Part shown: positions 13,099 to 27,246 of the stretch, piece after piece
Numbering within the stretch: position 1 is the stretch's first letter
How the letters are laid out: the number at the start of each line of letters is the position of its first letter
Assembly: GCA_030017995.1 (NCBI GenBank)
Contig: JASEGS010000011.1
Location: 1-49,263, forward strand
Source of the DNA: Thermodesulfovibrionales bacterium
GTDB lineage: Bacteria; Nitrospirota; Thermodesulfovibrionia; Thermodesulfovibrionales; Dissulfurispiraceae
Length of the DNA stretch: 49,263 nt
Reading direction: 5' to 3'
Position numbers and translations under genes: made by a program
Notes under the pieces: generated by a model
Database searches by the model: none
Told to the model about the DNA's origin: nothing
What the model saw: only the letters and a program-made list of their open reading frames with translations

Positions 13099-14249
13099 CT
13101 GAATTTGGGATTTGCTGTTTTTAAACCATCCGGCCATACGACCTCTTTTTTGCCGTTTTGCCATTGCACAATAAGATTAAACTGCCTTATCTGCATCCCT
13201 GTTTTGTCCACTCCATACATGCCTATTATGGTCATCGTGTTCATGACAGATAGAGTATCTCTTATCTTGGTTTTATCAAGGCTGTTGGTTTTCTTTATAG
13301 CTGCCTCCAATATCTCTGCAGCAGCATAGATAATCGCAGCCTCATAAGATGGCGGCCTTCTGCATGTCTTTATAAAATCCTTATAAAATTCCCTGCCCCC
13401 ATTAAATGCTGTGCTATGCTCCCATAAAGAAAAGGAGAATGTATAATTGGCATTTGATTTAAGCCTTTCATAAAAGGCCGGCATTGCGCTGCCTGCTGAT
13501 GCAAAGTATGCCTTTGGATGCCAGCCGATCTTTTTTAGAGCGAGCTTCATGTTTACGGCCTCTTCAAAATGTCCGCATAAGATAAGGGCATGTGCCCCTG
13601 AGGTTTTTACACGCGCTGCGATTTCTTCGAGGTTTGTTGTGCCCTGCTTAAAGGTCTCCCACAGTCTGATCCCGAGCTTAAATCTTTTTGCCCATTTCTT
13701 CGTGCCGTTTGCAATTTCCAGTGAGAACGTGTCATCTGCAAAAACTACGGCTATATCATCTAAATTGTTCATTAAAAGCAACTCAAGAAATCCAATCGTA
13801 AAATTGCTCGCAGGGGTGAAAACACCAAAGACATTCCTGTAACCCTTCTGCCATAGCCTATCAGCAGAAGCGCCTGATATTAAGACAGGGTAAGCATATT
13901 TCTCTGTTATTGGCAGTACGGCTTCTGTTATTTCGCTTGAATACGGGCTGAAAACAAAGTTAACCTTATCCTTCAAGATGAGATGTTCATAAAGTGCTTT
14001 TGCAGTCTTTGAATCGCTTTCGTCATCATATACAATAATCTGAACCTTCCTGCCTAAAATACCGCCCCTGCTGTTTACATTGCTCTCCCAAAGCCTTAAG
14101 CCCATTATTTGCATGCCTGACATCTCTGAATACTTCCCTGTCAGACCGAGGGTGAGTCCAATCTTTATAGGCTCAGACGCTGATGCATCTCTTAAAAAAA
14201 TGGGAAATAAAAGAACTATGCTTATGGCTATAAAATTAAGCCTTTTCAT
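13095..14249 (-). CDS. Periplasmic ligand-binding protein (LivJ-type, Peripla_BP_6)
   Basis: 384 residues with an N-terminal signal peptide (MKRLNFIAISIVLLFPIF, likely cut after SAS). The mature part begins IKIGLTLGLTGKYSEMSG, typical of the branched-chain amino acid/amide binding family, and continues with GGILGRKVQIIVYDDESD and GPYSSE-like FSPYSSEITEAV. No permease or ATPase gene lies beside it. The stop overlaps the histidine kinase start, so it is probably a sensory co-receptor rather than a transport component (inference). Confidence 0.88.
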
Positions 14250-14349
14250 AAGAAAATTATAGCAGATTATTCTTTAAACAAATTTTTCACATGCATTTCA
14301 CAGGAAAAACTTTTATAAAACAGCAGATTATAAAAATGTTATTTTTTCC

Positions 14350-14378
14350 TTGACATACACAACATATTGTGGTTAAAT
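14350..14378 (+). promoter_or_regulatory. nrdJ promoter with NrdR-like box
   Basis: TTGACA (14350-14355), a 17-base spacer and TTAAAT (14373-14378) form a sigma70-type promoter. The spacer contains ACACAACATATTGTGG (14357-14372), matching the remembered NrdR consensus acaCwAtATaTwGtgt at about 14 of 16 positions. The usual second box about 31 bp away is at best degenerate. Repressor binding here would block RNA polymerase. Confidence 0.72.
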
Positions 14379-14415
14379 CTTTAAGACTATACTAAATGAT
14401 GAAAAAGGGGGGATT

Positions 14416-16674
14416 ATGGAAGAAGTAGCAAGTATTCTTAATTTATCGCCAAATGCCATGACAGTCCTCGAAAAAAGGTATCTTAAGAAAAATGAGGAAG
14501 GCAGGGTGATAGAGACGCCGGAGGAGCTTTTTAAAAGGGTCGCTGTCTTTGTAGCATCAGCAGATGCGTTATACGGAAATGGTGAAGAGAAGGTAAAACA
14601 GACAGGAGAAGACTTCTATGAGCTCATAACTTCTCTCTCGTTCCTTCCCAACAGCCCTACATTGATGAATGCAGGAAGAAGGCTTGGGCAGCTTTCGGCA
14701 TGTTTCGTCCTGCCTGTAGGCGACTCTATGGAATCCATATTTGATGCTGTCAAATACGCTGCCATTATCCATAAATCAGGCGGTGGCACGGGTTTTAGCT
14801 TTTCGAGGCTGAGGCCTAAGGGAGATGTTGTGGGCTCAACAAAAGGGATATCCTCAGGCCCTATATCCTTTATGACCGTATTTGACACCGCCACCGAGGC
14901 TGTAAAGCAAGGCGGAACAAGAAGAGGAGCCAATATGGGGATGCTCAGAGTTGACCATCCTGATATAATGGAATTCATACCATGCAAAGACAGCAACCAT
15001 AAGCTTAACAATTTCAACATCTCTGTAGGACTTACAGAGCCATTCATGAAGGCAGTAGAAGAAGACACAGAGTATGATCTTATCACCCCAAGAACTGGCA
15101 AGATTGTAGGCAGACTCAGGGCACAGATTGTTTTTGAGACTATAGTGAAGCAGGCATGGAAAAACGGAGAACCGGGAATAGTGTTTCTGGACAGAATAAA
15201 CGCCTCAAACCCAACCCCTGCAATTGGAGAAATAGAATCCACAAACCCATGCGGTGAACAGCCGCTCTTGCCGTATGAATCGTGTAATTTAGGGTCAATC
15301 AATCTTGCAAAGATGGTAAGAATCAGAGAACAGAACACAGAAGACAGAACGCAGACATATGAAGTTGACTGGCAGAAACTTAAAGAGACGACATGGAAGG
15401 CTGTACATTTCCTTGACAATGTCATAGATGTCAATAAATATCCCCTTAAAATGATAGAGGAGATGACAAAGGCCAATAGAAAGATAGGCCTCGGTGTAAT
15501 GGGATGGGCAGATATGCTCATTCAGATGGCAATTCCCTACAATTCGGAAAGGGCAATAACACTGGCAGAAGAAGTAATGGAATTTATTCAAAAAGAAGGC
15601 AGGGCAGCATCTTGCGCCCTCGCAGAGGAAAGAGGTGTATTCCCTAATTACGAACAGAGCATATACTGTGATGAGATCAAACTAAGGAATGCTACTATAA
15701 CCACCATAGCCCCGACAGGAACACTGTCTATAATAGCAGGATGCTCTTCTGGGATAGAGCCACTGTTTGCTGTATCATTCGTAAGAAATGTAATGGAAGG
15801 CACAAAGCTCATAGAGGTCAATCCCCATTTTGAAAAAGAGGCAAAGGCAGCAGGACTCTGGAGCAGAGAGCTTATGGAGAAGATCGCTGAAACAGGCTCT
15901 GTTTCTCAATTCAAGGAGTTCCCAGACAAGATGAGAAGCGTCTTTGTAACAGCCCATGACATAACGCCCATAGACCACATAAGGATGCAGGCAGCATTCC
16001 AGAAGCACGTAGACAATGCGGTCTCAAAGACAGTGAACTTTTCACATACTGCAACCACAAAGGATGTGGAGGATGTATACATGCTGGCATACAAACTGAA
16101 CTGCAAGGGTCTCACTGTTTACAGGGACGACTCAAGGGAGGAGCAGGTTCTTACAAAACAGAAAACAGAAGACAAAGCACGGAAGACAGAACAAAAGGTA
16201 ATCCCCAAAAAGCGGCCTACTGTCATTAATGGCGCCACAAGGTTTATGAAAACAGGTTGTGGCAATCTCTATGTAACAGTCAATGAGGATGAAAACGGCA
16301 AGCCCTTCGAAGTATTCACAAACATAGGCAAGGCAGGAGGTTGTGCATCGAGCCAGGCAGAAGCAATCGGAAGGCTCATATCCCTTTCATTAAGGTCAAA
16401 CATAGAGCCGGAAGAGATAGTAAAGCAGCTCAAAGGGATATCATGTCACCAGCCGTCATGGACTGAAGGCGGGAAAATACTTTCATGCTCAGATGCCATT
16501 GCCAAGGCATTGGAGAAGTATCATCATCATGGAGAAAAAGGCGATAATGGAAATGGCAAGTCAGGGCATCATGAGGTAATGCAGATAGGCGCATGTCCAG
16601 AGTGCGGCGGTACCGTTGAACACGAAGGCGGCTGCGCAGTCTGCCATAACTGTGGATTTACAAAATGCGGGTAA
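14416..16674 (+). CDS. nrdJ: Adenosylcobalamin-dependent ribonucleotide reductase, class II
   Basis: Reduces ribonucleotides to deoxyribonucleotides with B12 radical chemistry and no oxygen requirement. 752 residues. Active-site segments are NSPTLMNAG, SACFVLPVGDSME, GTGFSFSRLRP, NPCGEQPLLPYESCNLGS (with the N/C/E catalytic set) and APTGTLSIIAGCSSG. The C-terminus carries a zinc-ribbon-like cysteine cluster (CPECGG...CAVCHNCG). GGGGGG lies 4 bases before the ATG. Two short insertions rich in E, Q, T and K (REQNTEDRTQTYE near residue 303; TKQKTEDKARKTEQK near 580) come from ACAGAA-type repeats and seem absent from typical relatives. Confidence 0.96.
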   Translation: MEEVASILNLSPNAMTVLEKRYLKKNEEGRVIETPEELFKRVAVFVASADALYGNGEEKVKQTGEDFYELITSLSFLPNSPTLMNAGRRLGQLSACFVLPVGDSMESIFDAVKYAAIIHKSGGGTGFSFSRLRPKGDVVGSTKGISSGPISFMTVFDTATEAVKQGGTRRGANMGMLRVDHPDIMEFIPCKDSNHKLNNFNISVGLTEPFMKAVEEDTEYDLITPRTGKIVGRLRAQIVFETIVKQAWKNGEPGIVFLDRINASNPTPAIGEIESTNPCGEQPLLPYESCNLGSINLAKMVRIREQNTEDRTQTYEVDWQKLKETTWKAVHFLDNVIDVNKYPLKMIEEMTKANRKIGLGVMGWADMLIQMAIPYNSERAITLAEEVMEFIQKEGRAASCALAEERGVFPNYEQSIYCDEIKLRNATITTIAPTGTLSIIAGCSSGIEPLFAVSFVRNVMEGTKLIEVNPHFEKEAKAAGLWSRELMEKIAETGSVSQFKEFPDKMRSVFVTAHDITPIDHIRMQAAFQKHVDNAVSKTVNFSHTATTKDVEDVYMLAYKLNCKGLTVYRDDSREEQVLTKQKTEDKARKTEQKVIPKKRPTVINGATRFMKTGCGNLYVTVNEDENGKPFEVFTNIGKAGGCASSQAEAIGRLISLSLRSNIEPEEIVKQLKGISCHQPSWTEGGKILSCSDAIAKALEKYHHHGEKGDNGNGKSGHHEVMQIGACPECGGTVEHEGGCAVCHNCGFTKCG

Positions 16675-16719
16675 GGGTGACTGGAAGCTTCAGAAATATT
16701 TTATCTATAGGAGAAAAAC

Positions 16720-17325
16720 ATGAGTAAAAATAACGGAGGTCATGAATTTACCCGCCCTTCTTGGGATGAATATTTTTTAGAAATTGCAAAGGTCGTATCC
16801 TCACGCTCTACATGCATTAGGAGGAGATACGGCGCCGTAATTGTAAAAGACAATGTGATTATAAGCACAGGGTATAACGGCGCACCGAGAGGGGACTTAA
16901 ACTGTGTTGACAAAGGAACCTGCAAAAGAAAGGAACTAGGTGTTCCTTCAGGCCAGAGATATGAGCTTTGTGTAGCAGTCCATGCAGAACAGAACGCTGT
17001 CATCAATGCTCAACCGGAGAGAATGAAAAAGGCGACAATTTACATAGCGGGGTTTGAAGATGACAACACCATCGCAGACGGCAAACCGTGTTTGCTGTGC
17101 AGGCGCATGATACAGAATGCGATGATAAAAGAAGTCATATATCTAAAAAAAGACGGAAGCGTTGTGAGAGTAAAAGATGTGAGGGAGTTGGAGGGGGGAA
17201 TTTCTACAGTTAAAGCAGAGATAAAAGATGCAGGCAAAGACACCATGGTAATTGCAGATATTAAAGAAATAGAAAAAGATTTCGAACATGCTGATTTTGA
17301 AGTACCAGAAGGCAAACATTTATAA
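16720..17325 (+). CDS. dCMP/deoxycytidylate deaminase family protein
   Basis: 201-residue zinc deaminase, likely supplying dUMP for dTMP synthesis. The catalytic HAEQNAV motif and PCLLCRRM zinc ligands are present, as is the SWDEYFLEIAKVVSSRSTC N-terminus of ComEB/dCMP deaminases. GGAG is 7 bases before the ATG. It follows nrdJ by 45 bases, consistent with a shared dNTP role. About 50 C-terminal residues beyond the deaminase fold are extra and unassigned. Confidence 0.9.
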   Translation: MSKNNGGHEFTRPSWDEYFLEIAKVVSSRSTCIRRRYGAVIVKDNVIISTGYNGAPRGDLNCVDKGTCKRKELGVPSGQRYELCVAVHAEQNAVINAQPERMKKATIYIAGFEDDNTIADGKPCLLCRRMIQNAMIKEVIYLKKDGSVVRVKDVRELEGGISTVKAEIKDAGKDTMVIADIKEIEKDFEHADFEVPEGKHL

Positions 17326-17339
17326 ATGAGGCGCTGAGA

Positions 17340-17807
17340 GTGCAAGTGGAGTATTCCTTAACTGAACTCAATGAATATCCTGGTTTAGGTAAATTCAATA
17401 ACCATACTGGTCTCAAAGACGAGCTTTCTATCGCCTTGAAGCGACCTGAGGTTCCTGGCTATGTTACTCTTAAATACGGTGTGCAGATAAATATACGGAG
17501 CGTTGGAAAAGAACCTGCATCGAATGTACAAATAAGGGTTAAAACAAAAGACGGAGCCTTTATAGTTCAAGCCCACACAGACGATAGCTTGTTGGTTGAA
17601 AGACTTCCCGACTTGAGTCGGCAGGGGTCCAAAGAAATGTTTATAAATATTCCTCTTATGGTTCAGGGCGAGGAGGCCAAATTAACCTTATGGTACGGAA
17701 TTCCTAACTCCGAAACAAAGCCTCTCCTTCCAACTGTACTGGTGAGACACGCAGACCGCCTCGGGCTACTTATTAAAGAAAAGAAAAAAGATGACGGTTC
17801 TAATTGA
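17340..17807 (+). CDS. Uncharacterised protein, 155 aa
   Basis: Starts at a GTG 14 bases after the deaminase stop. I do not recognise a family. It has no signal peptide or membrane helix, and alternating hydrophobic strands (YGVQINIRSVG, NVQIRVKTKDG, EEAKLTLWYGI) suggest a beta-sandwich. The last codons (KKKDDGSN and stop) are supplied by direct repeat copy A, so the original 3' end may have been replaced. It is the first gene of the restriction-modification island. Confidence 0.6.
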   Translation: MQVEYSLTELNEYPGLGKFNNHTGLKDELSIALKRPEVPGYVTLKYGVQINIRSVGKEPASNVQIRVKTKDGAFIVQAHTDDSLLVERLPDLSRQGSKEMFINIPLMVQGEEAKLTLWYGIPNSETKPLLPTVLVRHADRLGLLIKEKKKDDGSN

Positions 17808-17857
17808 ATATTGAAAAACAAAAGACGACTATAATCATCGGCGATAGTCGGAGGATA
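17793..17857 (+). repeat. Island repeat copy A: methyltransferase 5'-end relic
   Basis: Begins GACGGTTCTAATTGAATATTG and, read from the TTG at 17804, encodes LNIEKQKTTIIIGDSRR before a stop at 17861-17863. It aligns with copies B, C and D downstream. It lies between the 155-residue ORF and the methyltransferase gene. Confidence 0.75.
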
Positions 17858-17866
17858 TTATAATTT

Positions 17867-19303
17867 ATGAGCGCTAAAGTCTATGCGGAAACTAAGCAAG
17901 CTTGTTGTATAGTCACTTTAGAAAACTGTACAACTTGTTCAGATAAAAATCACTGTTTTGTTCTAAGGGAGCAGTTAGCTTTCTATAACCGCTTGGGGAT
18001 ATCTCAAATCGAGGATGATATTGATGCTGATTCCTTAGCAAGCATAAAGTATTTATGGCAAGATTCGACTCGAGCTAAGAAGTATGATCCGAGTTGGAAT
18101 TATGCTGAAGATAATACACGGGCTTATACCCACCCTATTCACCCTTATCCCGCAATGATGATACCTCAAGTGGCAGGAAGACTTATTGATATGTATGCAA
18201 AACCAAAAGCAGTTGTGTTAGACCCATTTTGCGGCTCCGGCTCCGTCTTATTAGAGGCATTCATAAGAGGTTATGATTCGTATGGCATTGACATAAATCC
18301 GCTTTCTCTTTTAATAAGCCGAGTTAAGACGACGCCTATTAATTACAAACAATTGCAAAATAAATTAAAGAGTATCTTAGAAACAGTTTCCGCGACAAAA
18401 AAAATAAGCAATCCTGATTTCTTTAATATTGACTACTGGTTTAAACCTCAAGTTGCATCTAAACTGGCATCATTGAAAGCAGCCATCGGTTTAATAAGAG
18501 ATAAAAAGATAAGGAATTTTTTAAAGGTAATTTTTAGTTTTACCGTTAGATCATCTTCCAATACAAGGAATGGCGAGTTCAAACTATATCGCATTGATGA
18601 CGAAAAACTACTTAATTTTAACCCGGATGTTATTGACCTCTTCAAAGCGAGAGCTGAACAGAATATCGAGGCAATGTCTGAGCTATGGGAACAATTCAAA
18701 GGAAATGAAACACAAGTAAACATTTTAAATGAGGACGCACGTTATAGAACAAGCATTAAAGATGCGCTTGTTGATATTGTAGTGACTTCTCCTCCGTATG
18801 GTGATTCAAAAACTACTGTTGCCTATGGCCAGTTTTCGAGACTTTCTTTACAGTGGCTTGGGTTTAATGGTCATTTATTAGACATAGATAACCGTTCATT
18901 GGGAGGGAGGTTAGATTCTGATAATCTCCCCATGGGATATAGCTCTCTAAACCTGAGATACGCTATAGACCTAATATCTCGCGTTGACAAAAAGAGGGCA
19001 AGAGATGTTATGGCATTTTATATTGATTTGAATAAATGTTTTATAGAATTAAATCGAGTTGTTAAAAAAGGCGGCTTTTTGTGCATGGTTGTTGGTAATA
19101 GAACAGTAAAGGGCATTCAACTGCCGACAGATGAGATTGTAGCGGATTTTGGAGAGCTTGCCGGATTCAGACATATAGAAACTATTATCCGCAAAATTCC
19201 AAATAAGAGGATGCCTTCAAAGAATAGCCCAACCAATAAAGCTGGTGAATTGGGTGCAACCATGACCGAAGAATATATCGTAACAATGGAGAAGACAAGA
19301 TGA
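17867..19303 (+). CDS. DNA methyltransferase of a type II restriction-modification system
   Basis: 478-residue SAM-dependent DNA methylase. Motif I is DPFCGSGSVLLEA (about residue 123) and catalytic motif IV is TSPPYGDS (about 305), in that order. TSPPY fits N4-cytosine or N6-adenine methylation; the partner endonuclease family makes N4-cytosine more likely. The N-terminus has a cysteine-rich stretch (CCIV...CTTCSDKNHC). GGAGG lies about 12 bases before the ATG, within the repeat-copy A leader. The stop overlaps the endonuclease start (ATGA), so both are made from one message. Confidence 0.9.
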   Translation: MSAKVYAETKQACCIVTLENCTTCSDKNHCFVLREQLAFYNRLGISQIEDDIDADSLASIKYLWQDSTRAKKYDPSWNYAEDNTRAYTHPIHPYPAMMIPQVAGRLIDMYAKPKAVVLDPFCGSGSVLLEAFIRGYDSYGIDINPLSLLISRVKTTPINYKQLQNKLKSILETVSATKKISNPDFFNIDYWFKPQVASKLASLKAAIGLIRDKKIRNFLKVIFSFTVRSSSNTRNGEFKLYRIDDEKLLNFNPDVIDLFKARAEQNIEAMSELWEQFKGNETQVNILNEDARYRTSIKDALVDIVVTSPPYGDSKTTVAYGQFSRLSLQWLGFNGHLLDIDNRSLGGRLDSDNLPMGYSSLNLRYAIDLISRVDKKRARDVMAFYIDLNKCFIELNRVVKKGGFLCMVVGNRTVKGIQLPTDEIVADFGELAGFRHIETIIRKIPNKRMPSKNSPTNKAGELGATMTEEYIVTMEKTR

Positions 19304-20004
19304 CTCTTAAAGAAATAGAACGTAGACTGCATGCTTTAAAAGCGACGGGATATATTCCCGCAGTTCGGCATGGTTCAACAGGCGTAGGGCATACTTTCGA
19401 GCAAAAAATGGGTTTATCTGAAACTAATATCCCGATCCCAGACCTCAGCGGAAGAACTGAGATTAAGACAACGAGGAGGGACTCTGATTCCCTTATCACC
19501 TTGTTTTGCTTCAATAGAGGAGTCTGGCATATATCTCAAAAAGACTTAATCGAGAGATATGGATATATTGACGATTCCGGCAGAAAAGCTTTGAAGAACA
19601 CAGTTTATGCTGAAAAACAAATATCTCAAGGGTTAAGCCTTCTAATCGATGATGTAAACAATAAAATAAGCCTGATAGATAAGAGTGGAACTCTATTAGC
19701 CACGTGGGACGTTTTCGTCATGGTTGGAAAATTAATGTCAAAGCTTAGCAGAGTTCTTTTTGTTATTGCAGATAGACGATTTAATGCCGATGGTGAAGAA
19801 GAGTTTTTATATAATGAAGCGCATATACTTACCGATCCCATACCGAGAAATTTCATTAATGCTTTTAAAGCCGGAAAGGTTGGCATTGATTTGAGGATGC
19901 ATCTTAAAGCGAATGGTTCGGTAAGAAACCGCGGAACAGCATTCCGCATTAAGGGAATAGATCTGTGGGATTTATACTCTAATATTAGAAGCCTCGGGAT
20001 TTAA
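19300..20004 (+). CDS. MvaI/BcnI-family type II restriction endonuclease
   Basis: 234 residues. The segment GVGHTFEQKMGLSETNIPIPD followed by EIKTTRR is the family hallmark; D in PDLSG with E-x-K in EIK forms the metal-binding catalytic site of this monomeric MutH-like nuclease. MvaI and BcnI cut CCWGG and CCSGG; the exact site here cannot be read from sequence. Translational coupling to the methyltransferase by a 4-base overlap supports one functional system. Confidence 0.88.
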   Translation: MTLKEIERRLHALKATGYIPAVRHGSTGVGHTFEQKMGLSETNIPIPDLSGRTEIKTTRRDSDSLITLFCFNRGVWHISQKDLIERYGYIDDSGRKALKNTVYAEKQISQGLSLLIDDVNNKISLIDKSGTLLATWDVFVMVGKLMSKLSRVLFVIADRRFNADGEEEFLYNEAHILTDPIPRNFINAFKAGKVGIDLRMHLKANGSVRNRGTAFRIKGIDLWDLYSNIRSLGI

Positions 20005-20020
20005 CATGAGGGGAAAAAAA

Positions 20021-20141
20021 GGGACGGTTATAATAATTGAGTATTGCAAAATCTAACCCAACCATAATCTTCGGCGACAGCCTGAACATGAGCGAACTTA
20101 AGGATGAGAGTGTTCATCTCGTCGTTAGCCATCAAGACTAG
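20021..20141 (+). repeat. Island repeat copy B: longest methyltransferase 5'-end relic
   Basis: From the TTG at 20037 it encodes 34 codons including IIFGDSLNMSELKDESVHLVV, then SHQD and TAG (20139-20141). The region before TSPPY in beta-class DNA methylases reads very like this, so the relic breaks exactly where the catalytic motif should begin. Its first 35 bases (20021-20055) are identical to copy C (20438-20472). Confidence 0.82.
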
Positions 20142-20146
20142 GGAAC

Positions 20147-20413
20147 GTGAAACCTCATCCTATCGAAATTAAAGACTCTGAAACTAAGGAGAGCATCATT
20201 GTTGATATGGAAGGACCTTATCATCCCAAGAAGGAAAGAACTGGTGAGCATATCTACGGAGCAGCTTTGCTGATTGATAATGTCCCTTATCATTTTGAAA
20301 AATACATTCCAACCCGAGACGAACTGCGAAGATTCAAGAAGGAAAATGAAGGCGATGCTCGATTTTCACAAGGCGGCTTCCTTTACCGCCTTGTACCCTT
20401 TGCTAAGCAGTAA
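20147..20413 (+). CDS. Uncharacterised protein, 88 aa
   Basis: GTG start 5 bases after relic copy B, with AGGGAAC just upstream. It is charged and soluble-looking, with a VDMEGPYHPKKER segment, a YGAALLIDNVPYHFEKYIP core and a C-terminus FLYRLVPFAKQ. I recognise no family. It sits alone between repeat copies B and C like a one-gene cassette in an R-M island, where small anti-phage or antitoxin-like genes are common, but no function is shown. Confidence 0.55.
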   Translation: MKPHPIEIKDSETKESIIVDMEGPYHPKKERTGEHIYGAALLIDNVPYHFEKYIPTRDELRRFKKENEGDARFSQGGFLYRLVPFAKQ

Positions 20414-20437
20414 AGAGACCCAAAGAATAAAGAAAAG

Positions 20438-20528
20438 GGGACGGTTATAATAATTGAGTATTGCAAAATCTACCCCTACCCTAATCCTCGGCGACCGCAT
20501 GTACATAAACAAACTGGACAGTTATTGA
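20438..20528 (+). repeat. Island repeat copy C: methyltransferase 5'-end relic
   Basis: From the TTG at 20454 it encodes LSIAKSTPTLILGDRMYINK and stops at 20526-20528. It is identical to copy B for 35 bases and then diverges. It precedes the second nuclease gene. Confidence 0.8.
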
Positions 20529-20587
20529 CAGAAAGCAATATTACTCCTTACGATAAAAGCAAGGAATTTTCCCCTTTTTAAAAAATC

Positions 20588-21448
20588 ATGAAAGCGATAA
20601 GATTTATATTAATAAGCTCCCTTCTCTTATCTCTTTGCCCTTTATATGCCCTTGAACTATCATCTTACTCATATGCAGAAACTAATGGATGTAACTATCA
20701 AACGGTCTTCAAGATAATTGATGGCGACACCCTTGAGCTTTCTGATGCCACAAGAGTAAGACTTATAGGCGTTGATACGCCTGAGATTCATGACCAGAGA
20801 AAAGATGTTCAATGGTTCGCCGCAGAGGCGTCAAAAAAATTAAAAGAATGGATAGAAGGAAAAACCATTTGTCTGAAGCAGGAGAGGGATAAAACACAGG
20901 ACGTGGATAAATACGGAAGACTGCTCCGCTACGTCTGGAAGTTGGATGGTTTTTTTGTTAATGCAGAACTCATCAAACAGGGCTATGGCTTTGCATATAC
21001 AAAATATCCCTTCCAATATTTAGAGGATTTCAGAAAATACGAAAGAGATGCGAGTGAAAACAATCGCGGCTTATGGGATAAGAAAGAACAGGAAAAATGG
21101 GAGCAGGAAGTCGAAAAGAATATGGTGTATGCAAAGACCTGTGGAGAGGCAAAGAGCATATGCCCAGAGGATGCCATTAATAATATAGGGCGGGATAAAA
21201 CCGTGAGATTCTTTGTTAAAAAATCCTATGACAGCGGTAAGGCTGTGTTTTTAAACAGCAAGAACAACTTTGAAGACGCAGACAACTTCACAGCGGTTAT
21301 CTTTGCGGCTGATAAATATAAATTCCCTTACGAGCCAGCAGATTTTTATCGGGGGAAGACTGTAGAGATAATGGGGAAGATTAAGGAATATAATGGCAGG
21401 GCAGAGATAATTTTAAAAAATAGCAAACAGATTAAGATAGTGAAATAA
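20588..21448 (+). CDS. Secreted SNase-type nuclease with C-terminal OB-like domain
   Basis: 286 residues. A signal peptide covers the first ~30 (hydrophobic FILISSLLLSLCPLYA). The nuclease core (about 35-175) keeps IDGDTLEL, RVRLIGVDTPE and DKYGRLLRYVW, which hold the Asp, Arg and Glu catalytic residues. Residues ~200-286 (KTVRFFVKKSY..., GKTVEIMGKIKEYNGRAEI) resemble the OB-fold extension of some SNase proteins. No clear ribosome site is visible. It follows repeat copy C and is distinct from the shorter SNase at 1716-2270. Confidence 0.88.
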   Translation: MKAIRFILISSLLLSLCPLYALELSSYSYAETNGCNYQTVFKIIDGDTLELSDATRVRLIGVDTPEIHDQRKDVQWFAAEASKKLKEWIEGKTICLKQERDKTQDVDKYGRLLRYVWKLDGFFVNAELIKQGYGFAYTKYPFQYLEDFRKYERDASENNRGLWDKKEQEKWEQEVEKNMVYAKTCGEAKSICPEDAINNIGRDKTVRFFVKKSYDSGKAVFLNSKNNFEDADNFTAVIFAADKYKFPYEPADFYRGKTVEIMGKIKEYNGRAEIILKNSKQIKIVK

Positions 21449-21465
21449 TTTCTGACAAAAGAAAA

Positions 21466-21566
21466 GGGAAAGGTTCTAACTGAATAGTGAAAAACCAAAA
21501 CTCTCCATAATTCTCGGCGACAGCCGGAACATGGGTGAGATGAAAAACGAAAGCGATAAATGTTAA
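21466..21566 (+). repeat. Island repeat copy D: methyltransferase 5'-end relic
   Basis: Begins GGGAAAGGTTCTAACTG and from the CTG at 21480 encodes LNSEKPKLSIILGDSRNMGE, continuing MKNESDKC before a stop at 21564-21566. Its end overlaps the start of the DUF1284 gene in another frame. Confidence 0.78.
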
Positions 21567-21958
21567 CCCTTAGAGGTCATCATCTCATATGTCTGCATTT
21601 CTTTTCGGGCGAGGGATATGACTCGTCATTCATTGAGAACCTCATGGATGTCTTGAAGAGGGCGGAAAATGAAAAAATAGAGATCGCTGCTACTGCCGAT
21701 AACATATGCGCTAAATGCCCTTATCTTAAAAATGATAAATGCGCTTACGATGAAAAGGCCGATGCAGAGATAAGAGAGATGGACGAGACAGCACTCCGTC
21801 TTCTTAATCTCAGCACAGGCCAGAAAATAACATGGCAGGCCGTAAAAGAATATATCCCTATTGTATTCCATGAGTGGCATAACAGATACTGCAATGACTG
21901 CGACTGGAAGCAGGCTTGCGAGAAAAGCGGTCTTTATCGGGAAATGAAAATGAGATAA
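21560..21958 (+). CDS. DUF1284 family protein
   Basis: 132 residues starting LRGHHLICLHFFSGEGYD, the family signature. Cysteines are arranged as CAKCPY...C (near 50-60) and C..CDWKQAC (near 113-121), suggesting an iron-sulfur or zinc site. Function is unknown. The ATG lies inside relic copy D and has no good ribosome site, so the repeat may supply its expression signals. Confidence 0.82.
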   Translation: MLTLRGHHLICLHFFSGEGYDSSFIENLMDVLKRAENEKIEIAATADNICAKCPYLKNDKCAYDEKADAEIREMDETALRLLNLSTGQKITWQAVKEYIPIVFHEWHNRYCNDCDWKQACEKSGLYREMKMR

Positions 21959-22011
21959 AATACCCAAAAGTATTTTAAAATATCTTACGTAAAAGTGATA
22001 TAGGAGATTTT

Positions 22012-23415
22012 GTGAACAGCGTAATATTTCTGATTATCGGCTTGATAGTAGGCGGAGCGGCTGCATGGTTTATTGCAAAGTCCCGCATTCATAAACAGAT
22101 CGTTGAGATCGAAGGCAGGGCAAAGAGCGCGGAGGCAGTTGTCGGCGAGCTGCGACAGCAGATACAACGAAAAGACTCTGACATAAGCAGCATCAGAAAC
22201 GACCTCGACAATGAGCGACAGCAAAAAACAGAGACTACAACAAGGCTTGAAGAGGCTCAAAAAAGGCTTGAAGATTCATACAAGAACCTTGAAGAGCAAA
22301 AGGCGCTCATCGAGGTGATGAAGACGGAGTTGACAGACACATTCAAGGCGCATGCGTCAGCAGCATTAAAAAGCAGCAACGATGATTTTCTAAAGTTAGC
22401 GTCCGAACATTTGGGGAAAATACTTGCAGAAACAAAAGGCAAACTCGGCGAACACAAAGAGGCTATTGACGGCACCATTAAGCCTTTTCAGGAAATGCTA
22501 AAGCGTTACGAGGAGCAGATTCAGGTTATCGAAAAAAACAGACACGAGAGTTTCGGCAGTTTGGCACAGCAAATCCGCTCCCTCTCATCAATGCAGGAGC
22601 AGTTGCAAAAAGAGACAAGCAATCTCGTAACGGTTTTGAGAAGGCCTAAGGTAAGCGGCTCGTGGGGCGAGATAGGATTGAGAAGGGTTGCGGAACTTGC
22701 GGGCATGACCGCATACTGCGATTTTTACGAGCAGGAGTCGGTATCCACGGAAACAGGAAGGCTGAGGCCTGATATGATTGTGCGCCTGCCCAACGGCAGG
22801 GAGATCGTCGTGGATGCAAAGGCACCTGTTGATGCGTATCTGAATGCAGTCTCTGCATCCTCTGAGGAAGAAAGGAAAAAAGCTATAAACAATTATATAA
22901 CACAGGTCAGAAATCATATGAACACGCTCGGGTCAAAGGCATACTGGGATCAGTTTAAACAGTCTCCTGAGATTGTTGCGATGTATCTTCCGGGAGAGTC
23001 GTTTTTCAGCGCTGCGCTTGAGCATGATCATAAATTGATAGAGGATGGAAGCGCCAAGAAGGTTATACTCTCAACGCCTACGACTTTTATAGCGCTGCTA
23101 AAGGCAATAGCATACGGCTGGCAGCAGGATCAGATCACAAAGAGCGCTCAGGAGATAAGCAATCTGGGCAAGGAACTTTATGAAAGGTTTGCGATTGTGC
23201 TCGAGCATTTCTCAAAGACAGGCCTTGCGATCAGAAAGGCTGTTGAATCATATAATGAAGGTGCGCGTTCAATTGAATCGAGGCTTATACCTTCTGTAAG
23301 GAAGTTCAAAGAGCTGGGAGTGTCAAGCCCGAAGGAGATAGCGTCTCCAGCTGAAATCGGCGAAGGCACAAAAAATATCGAGCATCTTGCGCTGGAATTC
23401 GAAGATGACAAATAA
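22012..23415 (+). CDS. rmuC: DNA recombination protein RmuC
   Basis: 467 residues. An N-terminal membrane anchor (about 3-22) is followed by a long coiled coil (about 30-120, rich in Q, E, K, R) and a C-terminal nuclease-like domain with SWGEIGLRRVAELAGM, RPDMIVRLPNGREIVVDAKAPVDAY and YLPGESFFSAAL. RmuC limits inversions at short inverted repeats in E. coli. GTG start with AGGAG 5 bases upstream. Confidence 0.95.
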   Translation: MNSVIFLIIGLIVGGAAAWFIAKSRIHKQIVEIEGRAKSAEAVVGELRQQIQRKDSDISSIRNDLDNERQQKTETTTRLEEAQKRLEDSYKNLEEQKALIEVMKTELTDTFKAHASAALKSSNDDFLKLASEHLGKILAETKGKLGEHKEAIDGTIKPFQEMLKRYEEQIQVIEKNRHESFGSLAQQIRSLSSMQEQLQKETSNLVTVLRRPKVSGSWGEIGLRRVAELAGMTAYCDFYEQESVSTETGRLRPDMIVRLPNGREIVVDAKAPVDAYLNAVSASSEEERKKAINNYITQVRNHMNTLGSKAYWDQFKQSPEIVAMYLPGESFFSAALEHDHKLIEDGSAKKVILSTPTTFIALLKAIAYGWQQDQITKSAQEISNLGKELYERFAIVLEHFSKTGLAIRKAVESYNEGARSIESRLIPSVRKFKELGVSSPKEIASPAEIGEGTKNIEHLALEFEDDK

Positions 23416-23463
23416 CAGGCGACTGCTGTTTAAAATATAGCGATAGGCTATAAGGGGGATTTT

Positions 23464-24147
23464 GTGATTGAGGACCTGAGAAGTTCAGAGACATGGCGCG
23501 TATTCAGGATACAGTCCGAGCTTGTAGAGGGCTTTGAAAGCCTTTTTGATTTAGGCCCTGCGGTTAGTATATTCGGCAGCTCCCGGCTGAAAGAGGATTC
23601 ATACTATTACCATCAGGCTATCAAGGTTGGAAAGATGCTCTCGGAGGCAGGCTTCTCGGTGATTACAGGCGGAGGCCCCGGAATCATGGAGGCTGCCAAT
23701 AAAGGCGTCAAGATGGGCGGCAAGGGCAAATCTGTAGGATTGAATATAGAAATACCTTCTGAACAATACCCGAATAAGTATGTAGATATAAACATCTCTT
23801 TCAGGTATTTCTTTGTGAGAAAACTTATGTTCATAAAATATGCCATGGCATTTATCATATTCCCCGGCGGATTCGGCACCATGGATGAATTGTTTGAGGC
23901 ATTGAACCTTGTGCAGACAGAAAAGATCGGACCCTTTCCAATAATCCTGTTTGGCAGGGAATACTGGAAAGGCCTTATCGATTGGATGAAGAACACCCTC
24001 ATTAAGGAAGGAACTATTGGCCGTGAGGATTTTGCCTATTTCCAGATTGTTGATACACCTGAAGAGGTATGTGAACTTTTAAAGGAACATCTCAGAGTTT
24101 CTGAGGGCAAATCCCCCATTGGCGAATGCAAAGAAAGCAAGCCTTAA
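23464..24147 (+). CDS. LOG-family protein (nucleotide 5'-monophosphate phosphoribohydrolase-like)
   Basis: 227 residues of Rossmann fold. The signatures SVITGGGPGIMEAANKG and PGGFGTMDELFE are the catalytic motifs of the LOG/YvdD family, which cleaves nucleoside monophosphates to base and ribose phosphate. GTG start with GGGGGAT upstream. It converges with trpD with only 6 bases between. Confidence 0.9.
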   Translation: MIEDLRSSETWRVFRIQSELVEGFESLFDLGPAVSIFGSSRLKEDSYYYHQAIKVGKMLSEAGFSVITGGGPGIMEAANKGVKMGGKGKSVGLNIEIPSEQYPNKYVDINISFRYFFVRKLMFIKYAMAFIIFPGGFGTMDELFEALNLVQTEKIGPFPIILFGREYWKGLIDWMKNTLIKEGTIGREDFAYFQIVDTPEEVCELLKEHLRVSEGKSPIGECKESKP

Positions 24148-24153
24148 TACAAT

Positions 24154-25164
24154 CTACATGGAGTTAGTCACCCTTCTGATATCTTCCAGCTTTTTGATCG
24201 CCTTCTTTGAATCTACAGCCTCTGCCGCAATTTCCTTAGCTGTTTTAAAATCATTCGCAAGACCTGCCACTACAATTGCTGCTGCAGAATTCATGAGCAC
24301 AATATCCCGTTTAGGTCCTGTCTCGCCGTTGAGGATGGATACTGTTATTTCAGCATTCTTGTCTTTATTCCCTCCGGTTATGTCTTTGCAGTCGGTCCTG
24401 TTGAAACCGAAGTCTTCCGGAGCTATATAAAAGGTCTCAACCTTTCCACCTCTGCATCTCGAAACCCTTGTGCCGTCGCATATTGTGATTTCATCAAGGC
24501 CATCCTCTCCATGCACTACCATTGCGTCTGCAGCTCCAAGGTTTCCGAGCACCGATGCGAGCGGTTCTGTGAGCTTATCTGTAAATACCCCTACTATTTG
24601 TCTCTTTGCGTTTGCAGGATTTGTCAGAGGTCCTAAGATATTAAATACAGTCCTTATGCCCATCTCTCTTCTCGGTCCTATGGCGAATTTCATTGCAGGG
24701 TGAAACAATGGAGCAAAGAGAAACCCGAAGTTTGTTTCAAAGAGGCATCTCTCGACCTTTTCAGGCGGCAAGTCTATTTTGACGCCGAGTGCCTCAAGAA
24801 CATCTGCGCTTCCTGATTGGCTCGATACAGAACGGTTTCCGTGCTTTGCAACAGGAATGCCGGAGGCAGCGACAACTATAGCTGTTGTAGTTGAGATGTT
24901 GAATGTGCCTGACATGTCCCCGCCTGTGCCACATGTGTCAACCACTCCTTCAGGCGCTTTGATCTTCGTGGCCTTTTCTCTCATTATCCGGGCGGCTCCT
25001 GTGATTTCTTCAACTGTCTCGCCTTTTATTCTGAGCGCAGTAAGGAATGCGCCAATCTGCGCGTCTGTGGCTTTGCCCTCCATTATCTCGGTCATACATT
25101 CCGCCATCTCCAGCTCTGAAAGGTCTATGTTCTGAATAACGAGATTAATCGCCTCTTTTATCAT
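24154..25164 (-). CDS. trpD: Anthranilate phosphoribosyltransferase
   Basis: Second step of tryptophan synthesis. I start at the ATG at 25164, with GGGAGG four bases before it; the longer TTG start would put that ribosome site inside the coding sequence. The 336-residue protein has [18 protein letters not shown] (PRPP loop), [21 protein letters not shown] and ILGPLTNPA. It overlaps trpG by 20 bases. Confidence 0.96.
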
Positions 25165-25735
25165 ATTGCCTCCCAAGTTTTATAAAATTCCTTAACAAGT
25201 CTTTGCCTACTGTTGTAAGAATAGACTCGGGATGGAACTGTATGCCCTCTACAATGAACTCTTTATGCCTTACCCCCATTACTATGCCGTCCTCTGTCCA
25301 AGCCGTAATCTCAAGGCAGTCAGGCATGGTCTCGCGTCTGATAATAAGCGAATGGTACCTGGTCGCCTCAAAGGGATTCGGAAGCCCTGCAAATATTGTT
25401 TTCCCGTCATGATGGATCATGGATGTCTTGCCATGCATCAGGTAGGGAGCACGTATGACTTCTCCGCCAAAGGCCGCTCCTATGGCCTGATGTCCAAGAC
25501 ATACACCTAGGATTGGGACTTTTCCAGTAAAGTGTTTTATTACATCAATAGACACTCCTGCCTCTTTTGGTGTGCATGGTCCGGGTGATATGACTATTCT
25601 TTCCGGATTCATGGTCTCAATTTCTTTAACGGTTGTTTTGTCATTTCTAAAGACTCTCACATCCTCCCCAAGTTCACCGAGATACTGAACGAGGTTATAT
25701 GTAAATGAGTCATAGTTGTCTATCATCAAAAGCAT
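25145..25735 (-). CDS. trpG: Anthranilate synthase glutaminase component
   Basis: Class I amidotransferase giving ammonia to TrpE. The 196-residue form starts at the ATG at 25735, which has GAGGTG seven bases upstream; a GTG at 25744 overlapping the trpE stop is an alternative. [31 protein letters not shown], the catalytic Cys in [10 protein letters not shown] and the HPES His/Glu pair are intact. It may also serve folate synthesis as PabA. Confidence 0.95.
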
Positions 25736-25740
25736 ACTTC

Positions 25741-27246
25741 TCACCTCATATCTTCTGCCATTTCCACGGCCTTAAACATACCCATTGCTTTATTAACGGT
25801 TTCCATATACTCCTTTTCAGGCATAGAGTCAGCCACTATTCCTGCTCCGGCCTGCACATACACCTTATTATCTTTTATTATAAGGGTTCTGATTGTAATA
25901 CATGTATCCATGTTTCCTGAATAACCAAAATAGCCCACTGCACCCGCATACGGACCTCTTTTCGTTGGCTCAAGCTCCTCAATGATTTCCATTGCCCTGA
26001 CCTTTGGCGCGCCTGAGACCGTGCCAGCAGGGAACGAAGCCCTGAAGACATCAAAGGCGTCGAGGCCTTTCTTCAGCTTCCCTTCCACATTGGACACGAG
26101 GTGCATAACATGGCTATAACGTTCAACATTCATAAGCTCTGTTGCCATTACCGAGCCTGTCTCTGCAACCCTTCCCACGTCGTTTCTACCGAGATCAACG
26201 AGCATTATATGTTCAGCTATCTCCTTAGGGTCCTTCCCTAAGTCTTTTTCAAGGGCATTGTCTTCTTCCTCTGTCTCTCCTCTTTTTCTTGTGCCTGCTA
26301 TTGGTCGTAGTGTTATTTTATCGCCCTCAAGCCTTACAAGTATCTCAGGTGACGACCCAACTAATTGAGCATCACCTGCATCGAGAAAATACATGTAAGG
26401 AGATGGATTTATTATCCTGAGAGCCCTGTATATATCAAAAGCACTTATCTCTGTACCCCTTTCAAAACGCTGTGAAAGCACCAACTGGAATATGTCCCCT
26501 GCCTTTATATATTCTTTTGTCTTTATCACAGCATTGATGAATTCGTCCTTTGTAAAGTTAGAGGGAAATTCCCCTGTAAGGGTGTAAGACGAGGGATTAT
26601 AAGCAACCGGCAAATAGCCGGCCTTTTTCTCTTTCTGGCTGCTGCTCACAGTCCCTTGACGTAATTTATCAATAATCTTATCTATTTTATCCGCAGCTTC
26701 TTTATATGCCTGCCTTAAATCTCTTTCATCTGTATGGACATTGCAGACTACCTTTATGGTCTGTTTTAGATTGTCGAAAATAAGGAGTGTATCAGTGAGC
26801 ATGAGGAAGATGTCCGGCATGTCAAGCCCTGACTTTTCAATATCAGGGACTCTCTCAAAAAACTTTACCACATCATATCCTAGATATCCCACAAATCCTC
26901 CGGAAAATCTGGGCAATCCATGCACATTAACAGGTCTGAATCTGGAGAGGATGTCTTTCACAACAACTAATGGGTCATTGGTTTCTATATTTAAAACCGT
27001 GCCGTTCTGTTTAATCGAGGTCTCTCTGCCATGGCTTGTTATGATCATTGAGGGGTCTATGCCGATGAATGAGTATCGCGCCCACTTTTCGCCTCCAACA
27101 ACACTCTCAAGCAAAAAGGATGGTTTTTTATCAAGCTTCAGGAATGCGCTCACAGGTGTTTCAACATCACCGATTACTTCCTTGTATACAGGGATCAGGT
27201 TGCCCTGTGTTGACAAGCTTTTAAATTCATTGAAGTCAATATTCAT
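25741..27246 (-). CDS. trpE: Anthranilate synthase component I
   Basis: 501-residue chorismate-using enzyme. The tryptophan feedback element LLESVVGG lies near residue 46. Chorismate-site motifs include [39 protein letters not shown] and [18 protein letters not shown]. First gene of trpE-trpG-trpD; the remaining trp genes are not in the window. No tryptophan-rich leader peptide or attenuator is visible upstream. Confidence 0.96.

Follow-up and report, generated by a model that had tools for sequence, protein, structure and literature searches.

Restriction-modification (R-M) and defence modules in an island of a Thermodesulfovibrionales bacterium are probably exchangeable units that are joined at the conserved first 20-120 nt of one DNA methylase gene, MTase2, and recombine there, a reading that rests on sequence comparison. 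The window, the stretch of 49,263 nt that was analyzed, is one whole contig of a 1.7-Mb draft genome that is 97% complete. It contains four remnants (stubs) of the MTase2 5' end, which are not a local oddity of this genome, being present in 36 Nitrospirota genomes. The features of the island are listed below, with the extent of the stub reading frame (frame) and the start of the core codons (core) in brackets.

17340..17807, + strand: 155-aa gene of unknown function, left neighbour of stub 1 (relative at 78% over 103 aa)
17785..17864, + strand: stub 1, leader and opening codons of MTase2 (frame 17804-17863, core 17828; member of the repeat family, profile match)
17867..19303, + strand: MTase1, type II DNA methylase of 478 aa (PF01555)
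19300..20004, + strand: MvaI/BcnI-family restriction endonuclease, REase (PF15515, E=1e-34)
20015..20141, + strand: stub 2, the longest (frame 20037-20141, core 20061)
20147..20413, + strand: 88-aa protein, function unknown
20432..20528, + strand: stub 3 (frame 20454-20528, core 20478; 87% identical to stub 2 over 83 nt)
20588..21448, + strand: SNase-family nuclease (PF00565, E=2e-21)
21461..21566, + strand: stub 4 (start now CTG at 21480, core 21504)
21560..21958, + strand: DUF1284 gene, right edge of the island (PF06935)

In a repeat search the four direct repeats of the original prediction came out ahead of every other direct-repeat family in the region, as units of 83 nt that match the copy at 20016 with 63-87% identity. 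In each copy, a leader of the type AAAAGGGGACGGTT(C/A)TAAT is followed by a start codon, which is TTG in copies 1-3 and CTG in copy 4, and then by the beginning of the beta-class type II methyltransferase MTase2, which reads xxIxKxxxTII(L/I/F)GDS after the start. The leader pattern first proposed, GACGGTT..TAAT.GA.TA.TG, was found in copies 1-3 and was absent from copy 4, which reads AAAGGTTCTAAC. The reading frames of copies 1 to 4 are LNIEKQKTTIIIGDSRRIL, LSIAKSNPTIIFGDSLNMSELKDESVHLVVSHQD, LSIAKSTPTLILGDRMYINKLDSY and SIILGDSRNMGEMKNESDKC, each followed by a stop codon. Their end points differ, copy 1 ending after GDSRR, copy 2, as had been noticed, reading to ESVHLVV and then breaking before the missing TSPPY motif, and copies 3 and 4 ending in between. 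All of them stop short of TSPPY and hence are not methylase genes. The core that stubs have in common is about CCTAAAACCACCATAATCATCGGCGATAG; around it copies 2 and 3 were identical at 32/38 positions and the other pairs at 22-28/38.

In the whole draft genome the repeat was confined to the island. A leader scattered over the genome without a link to methylases, which would have refuted the prediction, was thus not observed. A dispersed REP-like repeat (many genome-wide copies, palindromic) was rejected, as the repeat occurs only in the island and has no conserved hairpin; a chance origin was rejected because the repeat is found only here in the genome and relatives hold a full gene with the same 5' end.

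The genes after the copies were those named earlier, on the same strand: MTase1 with the MvaI/BcnI REase, the 88-aa unknown, the SNase and the DUF1284 gene. The 88-aa protein had no match in Pfam, PADLOC or NCBIfam. The nuclease has a hydrophobic N-terminus, and the secretion signal that had been read into it is only putative. The frame of stub 4 ends within the start of DUF1284 (ATGTTAA), and rmuC follows at 22012. No known RNA families were detected in 14000-26000.

Intact MTase2 was identified in about 25 relatives as a gene of about 420 codons that opens with the same 5' end as the stubs, demonstrating that the stubs derive from MTase2, as had been predicted from the family layout. Its product is an N6/N4 methylase of the beta class that covers the full PF01555 profile and carries an SNase-like domain (PF00565) at the C-terminus; the best PADLOC model was the type II methylase PDLC03259, and an MjaI-type restriction enzyme (PF09568) comes next in several relatives. 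The intact copy at L075 met the criteria for a beta-class methylase, with PF01555 positions 1-221, TSPPY and DPFLGSGT. A search of the window genome with the whole gene returned stubs only, confirming that the methylase has been lost there. Over 20048-20127, stub 2 shared 88% identity with the intact MTase2 of genome G141. Stubs were seldom most like the MTase2 of their own genome. Local copying of the resident MTase2 was clear in G030, where a stub downstream of the MTase2-REase pair shows no difference from the MTase2 of that genome in the initial 45 nt of the core region, and probable in G005 and G012, and was rejected as a general origin.

A stub sequence profile run over 396 genomes of the phylum Nitrospirota, most of which are draft metagenome-assembled genomes (MAGs), matched 62, including the MAGs PEUB01, MNVK01 and VGWX01. 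The surroundings of the matches yielded 63 stubs in the 36 genomes, plus about 25 intact starts. With the strict leader pattern, three records were matched among about 85,000 species genomes, all of them Nitrospirota; given the strictness of the pattern, looser copies elsewhere are not excluded. Neither phages nor plasmids gave a match, viral contigs gave none to an exact core pattern, and a phage, plasmid or viral origin was rejected on the absence of matches in those collections.

The fragments were also evaluated without any prior pattern, using MTase2 as a 1321-nt query over 176 genomes. Isolated short fragments were counted by hand, omitting pieces that adjoin a longer match, and 17/20 fell in the first 190 nt (binomial P about 4e-12). 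With MTase1 as the control query, 0/10 isolated fragments lay in the first 200 nt. The 5' bias of MTase2 fragments is therefore real and was unseen for the one other methylase tested, and we rejected the idea that it is a general property of methylase 5' ends. Nearly all 5' remnants of MTase2 were shorter than 150 nt.

The commonest gene after a stub was another type II methylase: MTase1 with the MvaI/BcnI REase, M.BsoBI with R.BsoBI (PF09194), or, in the set tested, one of eight further proteins with PF01555. Less common were an HNH protein, 23S-rRNA-IVP-like proteins, a HEAT protein, DUF1284 and SNase. All stub copies were in gene orientation, and 52/60 lay <=200 nt upstream of a same-strand ORF. 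The HNH module occurred six times in 386 genomes, five times with an upstream stub that ranged from perfect to barely recognisable (badly decayed in G114) and once, in G207, without one; the stub thus moves with the module and then decays. Nested stubs, an MTase2 stub followed by the 5' stub of another methylase, were found at L070, L073 and L080.

The proximity of stubs to the next ORF could mean that they are kept because the methylase start region drives translation of the next gene or is translationally coupled to it. Many stub frames do end on the next start codon (ATGA, TAATG, ATGTTAA), which is striking by eye. Against random-frame entry into the same spacers, however, the coincidence of stop and start was not significant (25/49 vs 22.3 expected, P=0.23; P=0.03 with a wider window). 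The start codon or the frame has been lost in window stub 4 and at L072, L119, L126, L132 and L153, and the HNH gene is found without a stub or with a decayed one. A leader function is therefore not claimed, since random-frame entry gives nearly as many coincidences, and we regard it as very unlikely.

When the locus was compared among relatives, modules varied one by one. In the family of the window, the locus is a hotspot between nrdJ/dCMP deaminase (names assigned by reading the sequences) and DUF1284/rmuC, and DUF1284 and rmuC recur next to the arrays of relatives. The relative of the 155-aa gene adjoins a stub on the left in G102 (L069), where M.BsoBI, not MTase1, comes next; the left gene and leader are common to window stub 1 and L069, which then diverge. 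In G116 (L076) and G134 (L080), a junction of the same kind as that of stub 1 is followed by MTase1 or by the 5' end of this gene; full MTase1 copies were found in six other genomes. The stub 4 type of junction before DUF1284 also occurs in G134 (L079), and in G026 the position immediately ahead of DUF1284, occupied in the window by stub 4 alone, holds a whole MTase2 with its REase. An island kept unvaried among relatives would have refuted the prediction; related loci instead vary module by module.

Reassortment was assessed by pairing stubs or MTase2 starts of one genome with those of another, taking downstream genes at >=55% identity as the same. In pairs with the same downstream gene, the upstream gene was common to 1/58 and the second downstream gene to 13/34 (Fisher P=4e-6). 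The upstream gene was shared by 23 pairs, some made up of a stub and an intact MTase2, and 2/16 judgeable pairs also shared the downstream gene. These counts demonstrate that left and right neighbours assort independently. Each stub was then divided at the core. Pairs sharing the upstream gene were alike left of the core (P=8e-5) and at background right of it (P=0.78), while those sharing the downstream gene were alike right of the core (P=8e-8) and at background left of it (P=0.44). Resemblance is to be expected on the side of the shared gene; what informs is that the opposite side stays at background. The P values are only a guide, because pairs are not independent. At base level, L131 is a mosaic that resembles L123 (85%) as far as the core and L150 (86%) past it, and the likeness of L138 to L149 is 45% on the left side of the core vs 98% on the right. 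Alignments placed the switch of homology within the stub core of about 20-30 nt. The cassette boundaries inferred in the original prediction are thus supported by the comparison of genomes.

Such junctions might be artefacts, due either to chance similarity or to draft assemblies wrongly joined at a short repeat, since most of the genomes are draft MAGs and the shared core is short. The four window copies, however, are 83-nt repeats on one contig, and the full-gene search gave the 5' bias with no prior pattern. Assembly chimaeras are unlikely because the same stub-module junctions recur in independent genomes, and an artefact of either kind is hardly credible.

Another reading is that the stubs are scars of passive deletion: R-M operons of the MTase2 type would have been present and lost again and again, leaving stubs that decay while hitch-hiking with neighbours. 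R-M addiction is an established phenomenon (PMC11324026), and a viable one-step loss must remove the REase, so that the methylase 5' end tends to become joined to the next gene. The nested stubs, the presence of stub 4 at the place of a whole MTase2 in G026 and the decay of stubs along with the HNH module all agree with this reading. End points spread over the gene would, however, give many long 5' remnants, and nearly all are of the short length noted above; the MTase1 control showed no 5' bias; and in-place deletion alone does not join one right-hand module, by one exact junction, to unrelated left-hand genes. We consider deletion scars alone unlikely, though not to be dismissed.

When codon conservation was compared along close MTase2 genes, namely those found by the whole-gene search, the seven core codons, TII(I/L)GDS, came first among 405 windows (observed/expected 1.46); among 408 windows of more distant methylases of this type their rank was 40. 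Either exchange that homogenises the segment or a constraint acting on the DNA would fit this result. Core conservation among stubs is partly built in, because stubs were found by their likeness to the core. About half of the stubs had no likeness to MTase2 right after the core, and many ran well past it into the gene.

The core of about 26 nt, lying in the MTase2 reading frame, could be the site of an unidentified recombinase that moves R-M/defence modules in Nitrospirota. The sharp switch between flanks without homology, the loss of MTase2 likeness after the core in half of the stubs, the unusual core codon conservation in intact genes and the single orientation of all copies would agree with such a site. 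Against it, many stubs reach well beyond the core, and the structures looked for were not found. The best 11-6-11 arrangement in the core had 5/11 pairs (shuffles mean 4.96, 70% reaching 5), so no dif-like symmetry was detected; no attC motif pair (RYYYAAC ... GTTRRRY) was present in the consensus or the copies; and folding was no better than in shuffles for 3/4 window copies (copy 4, z -2.8). Both hairpin or attC-like structure and dif-like symmetry were accordingly rejected as explanations. No tyrosine recombinase was found on the window contig, all PF00589 matches of the genome being on other contigs (in a draft genome a distant integrase is not excluded), and none on the array contigs of 12 relatives except one in G030, about 30 kb away. 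Site-specific cassettes therefore appear quite unlikely.

From the compared sequences we conclude that the window island appears to be an array of R-M/defence modules recombining at a shared methylase start, by machinery that is unknown. Many joints carry MTase2, or the stub left by it, in the same orientation, which could allow DNA with one module to recombine with DNA of another inside the shared segment. The outcome would be a new right-hand module joined to the resident left-hand gene or, alternatively, deletion of the DNA between two direct copies. Each event would leave the segment behind, which mutation and deletion may later shorten towards the core. Selection may add to this, in that one-step losses sparing the cell must remove the REase of a methylase-then-REase operon, so that the methylase 5' end would be kept. 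We infer homologous or short-homology recombination after horizontal transfer, together with direct-repeat deletion, and not a dedicated recombinase; we also infer, without a genome of the same genus for comparison, that module exchange may still be under way.

Some observations count against recombination at the methylase start. The segment between non-homologous flanks is often only 20-30 nt, which is short for RecA-type recombination and requires the assumption of longer homology at the time of the event. No excised or empty forms were seen among the genomes compared, which included none of the same genus. Defence islands shuffle anyway, so the stub could sit at joints passively; the switch within the core argues against passive stubs, with the reservation about non-independent pairs.

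Defence-island hotspots beside core genes have variable R-M content at a fixed place, as does the present locus from dCMP deaminase to DUF1284/rmuC; unlike them, the internal joints here bear a common, recognisable sequence. In integron cassette arrays, individual genes or operons all face the same way, a repeated element lies between neighbours, and the combinations vary between genomes. The stub arrays share all these traits, whereas they have no attC motif pair or hairpin and no integrase on the contig, and their element is a piece of a reading frame. In the pdif/dif modules of Acinetobacter, small modules between short repeated sites are reshuffled between replicons (PMC6449649), which resembles the present arrangement. 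The 28-bp dif sites, however, have palindromic 11-bp XerC/XerD arms around a 6-bp centre, symmetry that the MTase2 core lacks, and stub copies all point one way.

R-M units inserted with a long, variable target duplication are known (Nobusato 2000; Furuta 2010, as summarised in PMC3874152), and for forms of this type the possibility that direct repeats cross over unequally has been discussed (PMC3031569). Like these units, which are bounded by direct repeats of ~100 bp and prone to rearrangement, each module in the window is bounded by direct repeats. What differs from known R-M repeats is that the start of one methylase family marks the joints between many unrelated modules, the repeat being always that 5' end. 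Nor are the repeats clearly duplicated target DNA: in G041, where MTase1 is flanked by a stub on the left and by the start of MTase2 on the right, the two share only about 28 nt, stubs are seldom most like the MTase2 of their own genome, and no empty target site was seen among the genomes compared, none of the same genus. No earlier description of methylase-start joints was found in the literature searched, the coverage of which was partial.

The entry, exit and swapping of R-M and defence genes in islands are hard to trace because the joints as a rule lack a sequence by which they could be recognised. Throughout a class of bacteria, the first codons of one methylase now provide such a label, so that module exchange can be followed and tested at single-base resolution. 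These results suggest that a resident methylase gene can serve as a landing place for other R-M systems.

A second methylase's 5' stub lies behind the stub of MTase2, the beta-class type II methylase, at three loci. Since the stubs are nested in this way, modules seem to have been lost from the 3' side more than once. The second stubs were of the following types:

L070: 5' stub of an M.BsoBI-like methylase
L073: 5' stub of an MQSLL-type methylase
L080: 5' stub of MTase1, the type II methylase of the window

In genome G102, contigs C53 and C13 overlap at an MTase2 start (L067:11107-11158 and L032:1-133), indicating that this genome probably carries a single long array of three stubs with an MTase2 gene at its end. 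Two features were located in genome G041:

L075:4933-6207, minus strand, MTase2 with a C-terminal SNase-like domain (PF00565; domain match)
L075:6610-7297, minus strand, MvaI/BcnI-type restriction endonuclease adjoining MTase1, frameshifted

The frameshift disrupts the endonuclease between residues 166 and 173, and the neighbouring MTase1 is intact. The SNase-like domain is an uncommon companion of a DNA methylase. Over 116 aa, the free-standing SNase gene of the window (20588-21448, behind stub 3) showed 32% identity to this domain of MTase2.

The core, the short segment common to the stubs, is contained in a short hairpin in window stub 1 (17828-17850) and in the stubs of G102 and G114 (L069 and L071). 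Among these the arms read CGACTAT..ATAGTCG or CGACCAT..ATGGTCG, a compensating change. No core hairpin of this type was present in the other stubs.

Directly 3' of stubs in six genomes (L081, L085, L118, L131, L140 and L150) was a gene for a 23S-rRNA-intervening-sequence-like protein, whose PF05635 match was slightly below the Pfam cut-off in the one protein tested. An R-M-type HNH protein of 424 aa was found in six genomes from distant families (L138, L143, L148, L149, L171 and L172). As its identity among them was 74-77% or higher and a stub was located at the module joint in five of the six, the HNH module has likely moved horizontally.
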